From Aliiglaciecola lipolytica (GTDB lineage: Bacteria; Pseudomonadota; Gammaproteobacteria; Enterobacterales; Alteromonadaceae): DNA of 64,000 bases. Below, piece after piece: positions 31,221-37,317 of the stretch. Every line of letters starts with the position of its first letter. Position 1 is the stretch's first letter. The position numbers were made by a program, and so were the translations under genes. The DNA lies in contig NZ_JAHKPT010000017.1 of the NCBI RefSeq assembly GCF_018860635.1, positions 91,226-155,225 of the forward strand, given 5' to 3'. Under the pieces are notes generated by a model that was given only the letters and a program-made list of their open reading frames with translations, was not told where the DNA came from and ran no database searches.

Positions 31221-31236
31221 TTGCGTTTGGTATAAA

Positions 31237-31277
31237 ATAAAGGCTCCTAAGTAGCGGGCTACTGAATGAACTTGGAG
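31237..31277 (+). repeat. Structured 41-nt element after ilvA, left copy of an inverted pair
   Basis: It begins ATAAAGGCTCCTA and ends GAATGAACTTGGAG. Its reverse complement recurs at 37276-37317 with 38 of 42 aligned positions identical. Internally GTAG-CGGG-CTAC can form a small hairpin, and CTCC can pair with the terminal GGAG. The differences between the copies fall mostly in the inner hairpin. It starts 16 nt after the ilvA stop and is followed directly by a terminator. It may be a conserved 3'-UTR RNA motif, a small RNA body or one end of a mobile element. Confidence 0.75.
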
Positions 31278-31306
31278 GCCACTGTCTTTTTTACAGTGGC
31301 TTTTTT
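31278..31306 (+). terminator. Terminator after ilvA
   Basis: Perfect 8-bp stem GCCACTGT/ACAGTGGC (31278-31285 with 31293-31300), 7-nt loop rich in T, followed by six T. It reads away from ilvA into the island. Confidence 0.9.
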
Positions 31307-31361
31307 ATATATTAATTATTATAAAACAATAGGTTATATCAACGAAAACCAGTATTTTTTC

Positions 31362-31388
31362 TTGACTAACTTTGGTTTTTGCTACAAT
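31362..31388 (+). promoter_or_regulatory. Possible promoter of the exonuclease-transposase-like gene
   Basis: TTGACT (31362-31367) and TACAAT (31383-31388) are good -35 and -10 matches but the spacing is only 15 nt. They lie 75 nt before the gene's ATG, just inside the island. Confidence 0.4.
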
Positions 31389-31462
31389 TAGCACTTAAAT
31401 TTCAACAAGATATTATAAAAACCATTCAAATTACCTATAATTTCTCAGTAACGGGGGGAATT

Positions 31463-33964
31463 ATGACGAGATATGTCTTCTTAGACACAGAGACAACGGG
31501 CTTAGACCCGCATAAAGGTGGTCATAGGATCATCGACCTAGCCTGCATAGAATATAGAGATGGCAAACAAACAGGGCATGTGTTTAATACGCAAATTAAT
31601 CCTGAAGGCAAAAAATCTACAAAAGGCGCTTTTAGAGTTCACAAAATCTCTGGTGAAGAATTAGTAGGTAAACCGACCTTTAAAGAGGTGTCAGAAGACT
31701 TCATAAATTTCATAAAGGATGCTCACCTTGTTATTTACAATGCTTCATTCGATATCCAGTTCATAAATAGTGAGCTAAATCGAATTAACTACCCGTCTTC
31801 AATTAATGACATTTGCTCTCAAATTACTTGTGCGATGGAGTTGACTAAACTCAAATTCAATTCTGAAAAAAATATTAGTCAAGACAATGCATGTAAAAGA
31901 TACGGTATTGATATAAGCCATCGAAAAACTCACGGTGCTCTAATAGATGCTAGTTTATGTGCAGAGCTATTTTTCAAGTTAACAGATGAAACAATAACCC
32001 CTTTAGAACGTACACCTCACTCAAAACCTCATCGAGATCCCAAGCTATTAACTATTCCTAGGGCATATAAAAGTAAATTGGGTGAAGTATTTATCCAACA
32101 AAATTTTTGTAAGAATAGTGAGTGTGCAAACTTTGGCGTTGTGGCCTTAAACCCAGAAAAATATCAAAATGGAAAGCCTAAAAAGGGACTCAGAAATGGA
32201 TATAAGCTAACCACGAATAAAAATGAGTACCTGCTGACTTGTAAGCTATGCGGTCAAAGCTGTGTAATTATCAATAATCAAAGCTTTGGCAAAGAATTAG
32301 AGCGATTGGCTGCTATTAATAGACAAGAGGAACCATCCTGCCCAAATACTGGTGATAGCGGCACTCCTTATGGTCAGCGTCATTACTATATACCTGAGTC
32401 ATACGAAGTAAGAAAAGGAACGGCAGTATTAAAGCCACGATGTATAAATGTTGGTCAAGGCATTTTCAGTAACCCTGAACTATATACTTTATCAGGTAAA
32501 ACAAGGCCAACAGAAGTTATCAAAAAACAAGTGAGCAAGTCAGTTGCTAGAGGTCGTAAGCCAACGGTTCAAGAACTTGAAGAGCAGCGCTTGGGATCGC
32601 AAAGAGTTAAGTGCGAATCTTGTAATACAAGGTTTTCTGTCAAGCTCGACCCTCAGCAGCGTCATTATATGAGAGATAGGAATTTACCTCTCTTTCTTAA
32701 CCTCATGAACAAAGGAATCATAAATCGTGAGCAAGAAAAATTAGATATGTCAGCCAAAGTAATTTACGGAAAAATTGATTTTTTCTATGAACAAGCTTTG
32801 GCCTTCGATGCTTATCATTCACAGCTTATTGATCATGCTGTAGCTACAAAAACCTTAAATCTAAGTACAGATCGATTGCACCATACAACAAATTGGGGAG
32901 ATCATGATATACCTCGTCCAACGCCTCTAGTTGTAACTTCGACAGTTGATAACCATTCAGGGTATGTGTTTGCTTCAACGTTAAACTTTGATTTCACGAC
33001 CGACTCTGATTATATTAAAAAAGAGCATAAAGAGAAAAAAGATAGTGACAAAGAGAGTTATTATCGTAGGTATGCTCAGTATGTTTTAAACGATGCCGAA
33101 GTAGAAGAAATGGCTCGTCAAACAAATGCTGATGTGGCAATGCAAATGCCAACGCAAGGACTCTTGGTAAATCAAACGTATAGTATGTTGACACATTTCG
33201 CTGTCATAAAAGAGATGCTTCGCACCGCTTGGCATATTAACTTGTATGCTGATAACGACTCTGGGTTCAAAACTGCTATTTCTGGTGTATTTCAGGACTG
33301 GCTTGCTGATGGAACAATGAGGGCTTTTCAAGTCTTTACGGAGCGTTCAGGTAATAATCAATTGTTAGATAAATCTACTGCTGAACTGATAAAAAAGAGA
33401 GACTTAGAATTACAGCAAGACTTTCCTAAGATGTCTAAAGAAGAACGTCTTAATTTGCTTTGGAGTCAGCAGTTAAGTAGCCGCGTCACGCTCAAAGGAA
33501 GTAAATCAGAATGGATTGTGAGTCCGAATATGTTATCAAGGTTCGCTGGTTTTCTACCGCTAACAAATATTAAGAATTTTGAGCCTGAAAAGGTTGCGTC
33601 ACTACTAAACTCAGCATCACTAAATGGTGTTGATAATTGGTTCCAGATTTTAAGAAGACACATTAATTACTATGAACGGCCCGTTACTAGCGGAACCAAT
33701 TCAAAGCGCTGGAATGCATATTCAGGATACAATCCAAAATGGATGGCAAAGCTAATGGAAGTTAAAAGGATATACCACAATTATTGCTCTACCAATGAAC
33801 GTAGCTTGAGAGAAGAATACAAGGGTAAACGCCAGTTAATGCCAAAACCAACTAGCCCAGGAATGAGGTTAAATTTAGCAAACAAAATATTTACTGCGAA
33901 TGACATACTCAACTTTAGCCTTAATCGTGAAAAGATACACTTGTTAAACAAAAAAGCTAAATAG
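31463..33964 (+). CDS. DEDDh exonuclease fused to zinc-ribbon and DDE transposase-like regions
   Basis: The product is 833 aa. Residues 1-175 are a DnaQ-like 3'-5' exonuclease with a full DEDDh set: D8 and E10 in LDTETTGLD, D97 in NASFD, H157 and D162 in HGALID. A Cys-rich region follows: C216-x4-C221, C260-x2-C263, C327 and C384-x2-C387 (VKCESCNTRFS). Next is a helix-turn-helix-like stretch (MNKGIINREQEKLDMSAKVI). The C-terminal part resembles an RNase H-fold DDE transposase: D496 in VVTSTVDNHSG, D597/D599 in LYADNDSG, and a candidate Glu at 627 or 738. ATG 31463 with GGGGGG 5 nt upstream is preferred over the frame's earlier codon at 31379. Low GC and convergence with the helicase gene mark it as accessory. 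The function is unknown. Confidence 0.75.
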   Translation: MTRYVFLDTETTGLDPHKGGHRIIDLACIEYRDGKQTGHVFNTQINPEGKKSTKGAFRVHKISGEELVGKPTFKEVSEDFINFIKDAHLVIYNASFDIQFINSELNRINYPSSINDICSQITCAMELTKLKFNSEKNISQDNACKRYGIDISHRKTHGALIDASLCAELFFKLTDETITPLERTPHSKPHRDPKLLTIPRAYKSKLGEVFIQQNFCKNSECANFGVVALNPEKYQNGKPKKGLRNGYKLTTNKNEYLLTCKLCGQSCVIINNQSFGKELERLAAINRQEEPSCPNTGDSGTPYGQRHYYIPESYEVRKGTAVLKPRCINVGQGIFSNPELYTLSGKTRPTEVIKKQVSKSVARGRKPTVQELEEQRLGSQRVKCESCNTRFSVKLDPQQRHYMRDRNLPLFLNLMNKGIINREQEKLDMSAKVIYGKIDFFYEQALAFDAYHSQLIDHAVATKTLNLSTDRLHHTTNWGDHDIPRPTPLVVTSTVDNHSGYVFASTLNFDFTTDSDYIKKEHKEKKDSDKESYYRRYAQYVLNDAEVEEMARQTNADVAMQMPTQGLLVNQTYSMLTHFAVIKEMLRTAWHINLYADNDSGFKTAISGVFQDWLADGTMRAFQVFTERSGNNQLLDKSTAELIKKRDLELQQDFPKMSKEERLNLLWSQQLSSRVTLKGSKSEWIVSPNMLSRFAGFLPLTNIKNFEPEKVASLLNSASLNGVDNWFQILRRHINYYERPVTSGTNSKRWNAYSGYNPKWMAKLMEVKRIYHNYCSTNERSLREEYKGKRQLMPKPTSPGMRLNLANKIFTANDILNFSLNREKIHLLNKKAK

Positions 33965-33973
33965 TAATTTTAG

Positions 33974-35383
33974 TTAACCAACAATTGGAGAGCGAGAAAA
34001 TACGGTTATAGACTTAACGCCTCTAGATAAAGCCACATATAAATTTTGGCTATTCATATCATCAGCATTTTGAATTAAAACATGATCTGATTCTAAGCCC
34101 TTCAGCAACAGTGTACTTCCTATTGCCCTATAGGGAACTCTGTTTTCACCATTATGCCTTCTCGATTCACGAACTACTTCTGCCGATTGAATATAAGTAT
34201 AGGCTGGGTTAGAAACTTTTAGTTGCAACACTTCTTTGACAGCACTGAAAGCTGATGTTCGAAAGACTCTGGTATTTTCCGATTCTTCTAGCGCAAGGAC
34301 TAATGAATTAGCTACTTCTGGGCAGAACGAATCAAGCATTTGGATATACGCTAATTCGATGGCAGAGGCTGGAGTTCGATTTCGACCATTACTGATTGAT
34401 TCTGCTCTTTGTTTTAATTTAGCCTTCTCTGTACCTGACATCATTGTTGTAATAACAGTCAAAAACTGTTCTAAACAAGTTTCTCCTTTGAAATTATCCA
34501 AAATATTTGCCAATAAGATTACATCCTTCAAGTCAACAGTTTCAACAACATCAACACCATTAACTGAGCTAGCGAAGCTATGGCGAGACTCAGCTCGATA
34601 TGGATTTCCAATAATCAAAAGAGAGTCATTATTGTTCTTTCTAATTTCATACTGTGAATCGACCTGCTGCTGGTGATCCGCTCGGTGGTCACCTGTTAGC
34701 GATTTCCAATATATATAATTTGGACAGGTAGTTAGATCTATTTTGTTTCCTTTTGCCAATTGGCTACGACTTTCCAGTAACCAACTTCCTAAGTCGCTAG
34801 TACCAGCATTTTCCCACCGCCAAGGCGTGTTTAACTCACAGATAAGTGGAAAGTTGACTAAAACCTCAGTTTCCCAATTGGGAAGCTTCACTCCTCTAAA
34901 GTTAAATATCCTTTGCATTGGATCGCCAAACACTGTTGTTCGCAATATGTTCGACAAATTACAAATAATATTGTGCTGATCAAAATCACAATCTTGATAC
35001 TCGTCAACTAATAGTCTTGAGTATGTAGAAATAATGATTTCATTGACTGCACCAGAGGCTAAATAACTTAAAACCGATTTTCTTAATTCAGGATAGAACT
35101 TTCCCGGTACATCGACACTAGATTGAATCGGGCAAGAGTTATTGAAGGAATTAGCAAACTTAATGCACCAACCATCAATTGTAGTAATAACACAATTTTT
35201 AGTAGGAATTTTAAGTTTTGTTAGCCGCTTTTTTAGCGCTGCTACACCTGCGGTGGTGTGAGTAAGAACCAGATATGGTGCAGGTAGAGCTTGCCCTAAA
35301 ATCTCTGTTAAAAGGTGAGTTTTACCACAACCCGCTGGCGCTATTACCGCTCCATTACCGCTATCGAGTACAGTTTTAATCAT
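33974..35383 (-). CDS. gajB: UvrD-like SF1 helicase, Gabija GajB-like
   Basis: The product is 469 aa (characterised GajB about 494). SF1 motifs in order: Walker A APAGCGKT (15-22), motif II VDEYQD (126-131), motif III FGDPMQRIF (152-160), motif V-like GSTLLLKGLESDHVLI and motif VI YVALSRG near the C-terminus. It is shorter than UvrD/Rep and lacks large 1B/2B insertions, as GajB does. It lies 3 nt downstream of the OLD nuclease gene on the same strand, so the pair is an operon. In Gabija, GajB senses or processes DNA and works with GajA against phage. The symbol is by family and context; no search was done. Confidence 0.8.
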   Translation of the reverse strand: MIKTVLDSGNGAVIAPAGCGKTHLLTEILGQALPAPYLVLTHTTAGVAALKKRLTKLKIPTKNCVITTIDGWCIKFANSFNNSCPIQSSVDVPGKFYPELRKSVLSYLASGAVNEIIISTYSRLLVDEYQDCDFDQHNIICNLSNILRTTVFGDPMQRIFNFRGVKLPNWETEVLVNFPLICELNTPWRWENAGTSDLGSWLLESRSQLAKGNKIDLTTCPNYIYWKSLTGDHRADHQQQVDSQYEIRKNNNDSLLIIGNPYRAESRHSFASSVNGVDVVETVDLKDVILLANILDNFKGETCLEQFLTVITTMMSGTEKAKLKQRAESISNGRNRTPASAIELAYIQMLDSFCPEVANSLVLALEESENTRVFRTSAFSAVKEVLQLKVSNPAYTYIQSAEVVRESRRHNGENRVPYRAIGSTLLLKGLESDHVLIQNADDMNSQNLYVALSRGVKSITVFSRSPIVG

Positions 35384-35386
35384 ATA

Positions 35387-37114
35387 CTAGCCTTGCGAAT
35401 TACGAACATTGTGAAAGAGTTGGTTTATTGGTGCAGTAAATTGAGCTAGAAATTGGTCATAGTGTGGGCCAATAATACTTCGAGAAATATATTCTGCTGG
35501 TTCTATATCTTTAAACCAGCCCTTCTTCTTTGCGGCATTCCCTAAAATTACTCTTAAATCAGGAGTGTCAGTAATCAGTGCAGTCTGCAAGTTATAACTA
35601 TTTTGAGACAAGTCAGAAATGTGCTGATTTATTGATTGCTCACCTTTCAGTGAAACAGCATAATTCAGTAATAGAGGAATACACGTTGATGGACAACAAG
35701 AGAACAACGCATTTTCAGTAGCGAAATTATTGCCCCATGAAAAAATTCCTATACCATTATTTATGCATGTTTGAACATGTTGTTGATGTTCAGCATCCTT
35801 GTCCGAATCTTTTAGTATCACGGTGTGATATCCTAGTTTTTTGAATACTAAAGCCCTAGTAAACATTGAGTCACCACCACCGTCAGTACAAAAGACACCT
35901 TGCGCTTGAATGCTATCTCTACCTAACGATTGGCTATATAAGTCAATACCTTTAACTAAGCCGATTTCAGTTTTTCCTTCACACACAATAACAACTTTAC
36001 TAAAGAAAGCTTCCGCACAAACCCTAAGCGTTGACTGATCTTCATAGCTGTTCGTTAAGCTGTAAATAATATGCGAATAAGATGGATTCGGTGGAGGCAA
36101 CGGAGCTTGCAGTTTTCTGACTACAAATAATTGCTGTGCTTGTAACTCTCTCAGAACATATGGTGAATGAGTAGTAATGAATACTTGTTGCTGAGGTTCT
36201 GCATCTTTTGAACCTAATTCATTCAACAGTCTTGTTATTCTGAATGGTTCAAGACCATATTCAGCTTCGTCAATAATCAGTATATTAGAGCTACTAGATT
36301 CTTTCTGAAGACCACTAATCAACAATCTAGATGAGCCTGTGCCTAATTGCTTCAGTGGAGTGTTATTGTCTCCATGTAAACTGATAGCACCATTTGAAAA
36401 AGAAATACTCCCTACATCTAATTGAGCTTCTAATTGCTCAACGGAAACTCCCAACTTATTTGCGATAGTCTTAACTTTAGTAAGTATTTCATCAATACCA
36501 TCTATTTTCTGCTCACGAAACGAGTCACGAGTAGCTCTACCTAGTCGAGTCAAGGTATCTGAAACGTCTATGCTATCTTCTGAAAGCTTATTTAGTACAG
36601 ATCTATTGCTCCAACCTAAGTGGTGAGAAGATATTGTGCCAAGACGAGCTGGAGATATTAGCTCTCTGTGCTTCCAAGGAAGTCTCCTTTCAATATCTTC
36701 TGCAAGTGCTCTATCAGAATATAACAGCCAGTCAGGATTGAGATCTTTGTCTACTACTAACCTAATTGTTATAACAGTTTCACAACCATTAGCTGGCTCA
36801 TCATGTAGTAATTTATTTTGTAAGTCGAATGCTCTTAGAAATTTCCCATACTTTTCGTAATTTAGTAAATCTGGAGCTAGTAGTCCTATGGTGACAAATA
36901 TTTCGATAGGAGTATCTGTGTTTAATCCATTAAAATCAGCATCAGAAAACGAATAAGAGCGTCTAGCGCCTAAGGCTAAATCTATAGCCTCCAGAATTGT
37001 CGATTTGCCAGAATCACCAGCTCCAATTAAACAGTTTAATCCGGGGTTTGGTGTCCAAACCAAATGTTTAACCACTCTAAAATTCTTTATTTCAACATGC
37101 CTAATTTGAGACAT
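35387..37114 (-). CDS. gajA: OLD family ATP-dependent endonuclease, Gabija GajA-like
   Basis: The product is 575 aa (GajA of Bacillus cereus about 578). An ABC-type ATPase domain contains Walker A GAGDSGKST (31-39), a signature-like LGTGSSRLL (~257), Walker B ILIIDEAEYGLEP (Glu ~283) and an H-loop TTHSP (~315). A TOPRIM domain follows with Glu in VVIVCEGKTE (~379) and Asp-x-Asp in LKDSDKD (~436). This is the OLD nuclease layout; the tandem UvrD-like partner places it with class 2 OLD/Gabija. GajA nicks specific DNA and is held off by nucleotides until they are depleted. ATG 37114 with AAGGA 6 nt upstream is the better start than GTG 37117. Confidence 0.85.
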   Translation of the reverse strand: MSQIRHVEIKNFRVVKHLVWTPNPGLNCLIGAGDSGKSTILEAIDLALGARRSYSFSDADFNGLNTDTPIEIFVTIGLLAPDLLNYEKYGKFLRAFDLQNKLLHDEPANGCETVITIRLVVDKDLNPDWLLYSDRALAEDIERRLPWKHRELISPARLGTISSHHLGWSNRSVLNKLSEDSIDVSDTLTRLGRATRDSFREQKIDGIDEILTKVKTIANKLGVSVEQLEAQLDVGSISFSNGAISLHGDNNTPLKQLGTGSSRLLISGLQKESSSSNILIIDEAEYGLEPFRITRLLNELGSKDAEPQQQVFITTHSPYVLRELQAQQLFVVRKLQAPLPPPNPSYSHIIYSLTNSYEDQSTLRVCAEAFFSKVVIVCEGKTEIGLVKGIDLYSQSLGRDSIQAQGVFCTDGGGDSMFTRALVFKKLGYHTVILKDSDKDAEHQQHVQTCINNGIGIFSWGNNFATENALFSCCPSTCIPLLLNYAVSLKGEQSINQHISDLSQNSYNLQTALITDTPDLRVILGNAAKKKGWFKDIEPAEYISRSIIGPHYDQFLAQFTAPINQLFHNVRNSQG

Positions 37115-37246
37115 CACTAATCCTTGTAAGAAAGCTACTACAGATAATTGATAAATTTAGACTAATTGTAAAATAGTCCTCTTAGAGTATGCCAACCTGA
37201 AGAAAATAAAGCATTATATTTATTGAGGTTAAAGGTGATTAGAGAT

Positions 37247-37275
37247 AAAAAAGCTACCACTGAAAACAGTAGTAG
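37247..37275 (-). terminator. Terminator after plsB
   Basis: On the minus strand a 10-position stem (37253-37262 with 37267-37276, one mismatch) and a TTTT loop are followed by six T (A-run at 37247-37252). It points away from plsB into the island, mirroring the terminator after ilvA. Confidence 0.85.
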
Positions 37276-37317
37276 CTCCAAGTTCATTCAATAGCCCGCC
37301 TAAGTAGGAGCCTTTAT
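37276..37317 (-). repeat. Structured 42-nt element after plsB, right copy of the inverted pair
   Basis: The reverse complement of this stretch repeats the 31237-31277 element: ATAAAGGCTCCTA at the start, GCGGGCTA in the middle and TTGAATGAACTTGGAG at the end, with 38 of 42 positions identical. GGCTCC can pair with the GGAGCT that ends the element and opens the terminator. It begins 18 nt after the plsB stop. Together the two copies bracket the island exactly. Confidence 0.75.

Follow-up and report, generated by a model that had tools for sequence, protein, structure and literature searches.

A probable 6044-bp DNA transposon carrying Gabija genes in the terminator hairpin between ilvA and plsB of Aliiglaciecola lipolytica

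The insertion sequence IS1272/TnSha1 enters DNA hairpins, many of them transcription terminators, with little preference for primary sequence (PMC4923244); part of the hairpin is deleted and no duplication is made (PMC4923244, PMC5678879). IS1397 and ISKpn1, both of the IS3 family, enter palindromic units (PMC1525189). The KolobokD elements of animals encode a DEDDh (DnaQ) exonuclease together with a DDD/E transposase, and the authors propose 3' degradation of intermediates as its role (PMC9587614). Gabija, finally, is known as cargo of Tn7-like transposons (PMC8649781).

Here we describe a block of DNA between ilvA and plsB of A. lipolytica, within a window of 64,000 nucleotides (the window being the whole stretch of DNA that was analysed). 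We read it as a 6044-bp DNA transposon that has entered the loop of the ilvA-plsB terminator, with an 833-aa protein as its transposase and GajAB as its cargo, and give this reading a probability of roughly 0.88. Hairpin targeting is already known from IS1272, Gabija as transposon cargo from Tn7-like elements, and DnaQ with a transposase from KolobokD; the combination of the three was not found among the papers listed by searches of the openly licensed PMC literature. The transposon family, likewise not found described, may have a name in ISfinder.

The Gabija pair and the borders of the block

The features of the locus are, from left to right:

31236-31254, no strand: left half of the interrupted terminator hairpin, AATAAAGGCTCCTAAGTAG, with the left CCTAAGTAG at 31246-31254 (from the empty site of genome G891)
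31255-37298, no strand: probable transposon, 6044 bp (empty site and end analysis)
31255-31277, plus: left terminal inverted repeat, matching the right one at 22 of 23 positions (repeat search)
31274-31310, plus: terminator-like hairpin pointing inward from the left end, with a stem of 12 and a loop of 7, followed by a T run (end scan)
31463-33964, plus: 833-aa probable transposase (Pfam, NCBIfam and core alignment; the enzyme class is a prediction)
33974-35383, minus: gajB, UvrD-like helicase, probable cargo (ORF list, Pfam, PADLOC)
35387-37117, minus: gajA, OLD-type ATPase/TOPRIM nuclease, probable cargo (ORF list, Pfam, PADLOC)
37246-37279, minus: terminator-like hairpin pointing inward from the right end, with a stem of 13 and a loop of 4, followed by a T run (end scan)
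37276-37298, minus: right terminal inverted repeat (repeat search)
37299-37317, no strand: right half of the interrupted terminator, with the right CCTAAGTAG at 37299-37307 (repeat and empty-site comparison)

The original prediction had taken the block for an AT-rich Gabija-like defence island between two convergent housekeeping genes, with a third, unusual nuclease gene beside the pair. The position between ilvA and plsB (names from reading of the ORFs) was borne out, and the G+C content is indeed low: 37.2% in 31255-37298, versus 42.8% in ilvA, 41.5% in plsB and 41.6% in the whole window. The Gabija pair also stands, as gene order, sizes, motifs and profile matches all agree. The gajA-like ORF encodes 576 aa from a GTG, or 575 aa from the next codon, an ATG, and lies 3 nt from the gajB-like ORF of 469 aa. 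GajA has the motifs GAGDSGKS (read by eye), DEAE, CEGKTE and DSD, and GajB has GCGKT, DEYQD and ALSR. In the proposed search against GajA and GajB profiles, both proteins matched PADLOC models over nearly the full length: GajA PDLC04168 (707 bits, 4.6e-213, residues 2-571, profile length 570) and GajB PDLC04173 (543 bits, 1.6e-163, residues 4-468, profile length 471). Pfam finds AAA_15/AAA_21 and OLD-like_TOPRIM in GajA, as in an OLD-type ATPase with a TOPRIM domain, and UvrD-helicase in GajB, giving the UvrD-like helicase next to gajA that is typical of Gabija. Sequence likeness to the solved structures is weak: the best GajA chain reaches 1.5e-4 over residues 4-89 only, and GajB 2.3e-7 over residues 112-170. 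The pair would be expected to give anti-phage immunity.

A repeat search identified inverted repeats at both borders of the block. A 22-nt pattern of the repeat has its two border copies and no other in the window, with none expected by chance; in the own genome, a 36-nt pattern allowing up to three mismatches recovered the left copy alone, as the right copy differs by a gap. The idea of a repeat spread over the genome was rejected, since neither the 36-nt pattern (own genome) nor the 22-nt pattern (window) gave further copies.

The empty site is seen in a genome of the same species (G891), whose PlsB is 100% identical over 820 residues. It lacks the block: between ilvA and plsB there is a complete hairpin that contains a single CCTAAGTAG. 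The stem measures 13 bp and the loop, AAGT, 4 nt, with A-rich sequence to one side and T-rich sequence to the other; this fits what would be predicted for a bidirectional intrinsic terminator between convergent genes. The window has CCTAAGTAG twice, at either border, as a 9-bp duplication across the hairpin loop, and the element is therefore 31255-37298. Its terminal inverted repeats measure 23 bp. Terminal inverted repeats, a duplication of fixed length and an empty site are together the marks of a DDE-type transposon. The borders given by the original prediction, 31237 and 37317, fall inside the two half-terminators, and the inverted repeats and the target duplication had escaped it.

In all seven genomes of the same genus that were examined, the gap between ilvA and plsB is about 60-190 bp with no element in between; one of the seven (G005), 59% complete, carries a related element elsewhere. 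Comparison of the interval thus identifies the block as accessory, and a core gene set at the ilvA-plsB site was rejected because the block is absent from G891 and these seven genomes. A tRNA-associated island was rejected as well, the window having no tRNA gene. Judged from its sequence, the block is a transposon carrying Gabija, not an unusual Gabija.

Related elements and their targets

The 833-aa protein beyond its N-terminal exonuclease domain, hereafter the core, matched proteins in 10 of 147 genomes. At E <= 1e-20 a profile of ten cores (A3) matched 30 of 395 genomes of the family; at E <= 0.001 it matched 46 of 394 genomes of the order and 6 of 369 of the class (own genome counted in each case). 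The order-level matches are mostly weak ones to a shorter protein, some 500 aa long, of a single genus. In this genus (g72; L075-L093 and further places) the distant core relative occurs in many genomes, often with one per genome listed, and it is possibly a domesticated relative. Matches were found in 114 plasmid records, all below 60% identity, and the 20 listed are called hypothetical protein, insertion element protein or are unnamed. Two phage records matched, both distantly and both from Staphylococcus. Distant relatives in Enterococcus and Staphylococcus entries among the plasmid and phage records have about 24% identity over 71% of the query, some being annotated as insertion element protein. 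No relative was confirmed in the viral contigs that were scanned, and the three loci from a genome contig collection all matched the exonuclease part only.

For 41 loci, the window and 40 others, element ends were sought as an inverted repeat with an 8-10 bp direct repeat; hairpins played no part in this search. Three loci from a set of 16, L041-L043, had been excluded before this count, being a fragment of the C-terminal part and one copy that lay on two contigs. Matching inverted repeats and a target duplication enclose the gene at 29 of the 41 loci; the duplication is 8-10 bp long, and exactly 9 bp in 24 of the 29. Of the 12 loci with no clean ends, four are cut by contig ends (L129, L142, L152 and L113), L139 has inverted repeats with unlike flanks, and four (L133, L134, L140 and L143) have, by reading, inverted repeats beside terminator-like sequence with an imperfect or absent duplication; for L132, L146 and L150 the search for ends yielded nothing convincing. 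A distant relative on plasmid 2 of Polaromonas (L134:8514-18669) is flanked, at a spacing of about 10 kb, by inverted repeats next to terminator-like sequence; the genes between them carry the annotations AAA-domain, HNH, YrhA and HepT/nucleotidyltransferase.

When the empty sites were rebuilt from the two flanks and a single copy of the duplication, 25 of 29 had a hairpin with a score of at least 20, versus 13 of 877 control windows, which were neighbouring DNA of any kind, not intergenic alone. The hairpins of the other four (L036, L039, L135 and L144) are weak. The A-tract lies 4.5 (sd 1.3) nt and the T-tract 4.7 (sd 1.4) nt from the duplication across the 29 sites, and the target may therefore be duplex half-sites, an A-tract and G+C-rich bases on each side bound by a symmetric complex, rather than the hairpin. 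Symmetric target preference is usual among DDE enzymes. Stem sequences vary widely, yet the centres of hairpin and duplication coincide to within 1.5 nt in 27 of the 29 sites (exceptions: L037 with 2.5 nt and L135 with 11 nt), which speaks against such half-sites; we regard them as a serious possibility that falls somewhat short of even odds. The reading as a transposon in a terminator is common to both kinds of recognition.

The ends of the elements have hairpins too. Positions 19-95 of each end were scanned inwards for a hairpin followed by a T run, with a score of 18 as threshold, and 57 of 58 ends had such a terminator-like site, compared to 29 of 580 equally long stretches from the interior; the lone end below the threshold is the left end of L148. 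These predicted terminators may substitute for the one that the element splits, and insertion would be nearly harmless because of this replacement.

The 833-aa protein, its relatives and their cargo

Residues 5-170 of the 833-aa protein (about 31475-31972) are a DEDDh (DnaQ-type) exonuclease domain (Pfam RNase_T, 2.5e-29) with D8, E10, D97, H157 and D162 in place, residues which presumably have the roles known from the DEDDh family. The best 25 of 28 NCBIfam matches all fall inside residues 1-209. In the zinc ribbons that follow (216-387), the cysteines 216, 221, 260, 263, 293, 327, 384 and 387 are invariant in 30 aligned cores. The same alignment has a D-D-D/E triad, recognised by conservation only, as in a DDE-type transposon: D470 in 30 of 30 cores, D597 in 29 and D724 in 28, in both cases otherwise E. 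For ten cores, the best Pfam match beyond the exonuclease has an E-value of 0.0047 and is to no transposase family, and the known transposase models of Pfam and NCBIfam are absent from the core matches. Zn_ribbon_InsA was found in one of ten cores with an E-value of 0.064, which is not the IS1 arrangement of an InsA zinc ribbon with an IS1 transposase. A PDB search with a single core found nothing, the core profile found zinc fingers (best E 0.011), and AlphaFold2, run on the window core as a single sequence with no alignment, reached a pLDDT of 34. The 833-aa protein is most likely the transposase of the element, and we infer that its core is a DDE-type enzyme.

In a phylogenetic tree of the 30 cores, the exonuclease bearers fall within one clade of 17 with support 100/100. 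Exonuclease sequence is present in 16 of the 17, in L142 partially at a contig end and in L131 as a separate open frame; L129, also of this clade, is cut by a contig end. No such sequence was found in the 13 cores outside the clade. This looks like a single acquisition of the exonuclease.

The elements appear to move. In one genome (G1006), two different sites are occupied by copies whose sequence is identical over 3421 bp. In a genome of another genus (G020; L160:9279-13192), gajA and gajB share 94% and 95% protein identity with those of the window, and together with the right end the stretch is 96% identical in nucleotides over 3352 bp. It adjoins a different half-terminator and lacks the transposase half; where the break occurs, there is an ORF read as a transposase of the IS200/IS605 type. 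Other elements have other cargo: Septu PtuAB (L028, 8650-13514), a type IV retron reverse transcriptase with a 2TM partner (L033), a type II methyltransferase with a weaker NotI-like match (L149), a YobI-type ATPase (L038), and PEP-CTERM proteins, an acyltransferase, an ankyrin/trypsin protein and others. Among the eight elements whose cargo was submitted to PADLOC (window included; 29 elements in total), four have a recognised defence module; the 28 other elements hold 49 further ORFs, of which Pfam covered 20. L147 and L151, elements of two genera in different terminators, agree in the sizes of three cargo ORFs (801, 353 and 272 aa), whose sequences begin alike. In the exonuclease clade, five elements (L029, L030, L031, L034 and L036) end in a small secreted-looking protein, and both of the two put to Pfam (L029 and L031) have a PEP-CTERM motif.

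The third nuclease of the original prediction is the part of its island that most likely does not hold. A three-gene defence island, with the DnaQ-type protein as a functional third component of Gabija acquired by ordinary recombination, would suit a gene that lies tail to tail with gajB, 9 bp away, and whose N-terminal part matches the PADLOC models DEDDh and PDC-S48. Against it stand the clean 9-bp duplication seen from the empty site and the gajAB pair of G020, which has no such gene, though the neighbouring half there seems lost. The reading was set aside because relatives of the gene sit with Septu, a retron, a restriction-modification pair and non-defence cargo, and we consider it very improbable.

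Proposed mechanism and comparison with known systems

In the mechanism that we propose, a two-fold-symmetric complex would recognise the palindrome, either in duplex form or extruded as a hairpin, and cut it with a 9-bp stagger across its centre; the 3'-5' exonuclease may process DNA during transposition, and the end hairpins of the element would then take over from the split terminator. Tentatively, and with a little less than an even chance, the elements could form an undescribed superfamily that recognises hairpins as structures, cuts 9 bp across the loop and has a terminator at each end; it would be a safe-site vehicle for single accessory modules, with a DnaQ-type exonuclease acquired once in one clade and active in transposition.

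Bacterial genomes contain intrinsic terminators throughout, and insertion into one need not disrupt a gene. An element that enters their loops and brings substitute terminators would find harmless sites everywhere and require no single attachment site, and such targeting would help to explain the movement of single defence modules between marine bacteria. If a structure-recognising superfamily is true, each insertion swaps one terminator for two. The element offers a testable system for structure-directed transposition, and its ends flag uncharacterised cargo as mobile, including possible new defence modules.

IS1272/TnSha1, of the IS1182 family, is the closest likeness in having a hairpin as target (PMC4923244), but an IS1272-like insertion that replaces part of its target is hardly credible here, as IS1272 deletes target and makes no duplication, whereas in our case the hairpin is whole and 9 bp are duplicated, and the core has no match to the IS1182-type or any other known transposase family of Pfam or NCBIfam. 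IS1397 and ISKpn1 have REP-type targets and IS3-family transposases, while the elements described here have intrinsic terminators as targets and a core unrelated by profile. Tn7-like transposons share the Gabija cargo; the element, by contrast, has three ORFs of at least 75 aa, none of them like tnsA, tnsB or tnsC. KolobokD belongs to another transposase superfamily and is eukaryotic, whereas the protein of the window is bacterial with its exonuclease fused at the N terminus. With Gabija itself the window has in common an OLD-type nuclease and a UvrD-like helicase in one operon; here the pair is probable transposon cargo and far in sequence from the solved GajA and GajB.
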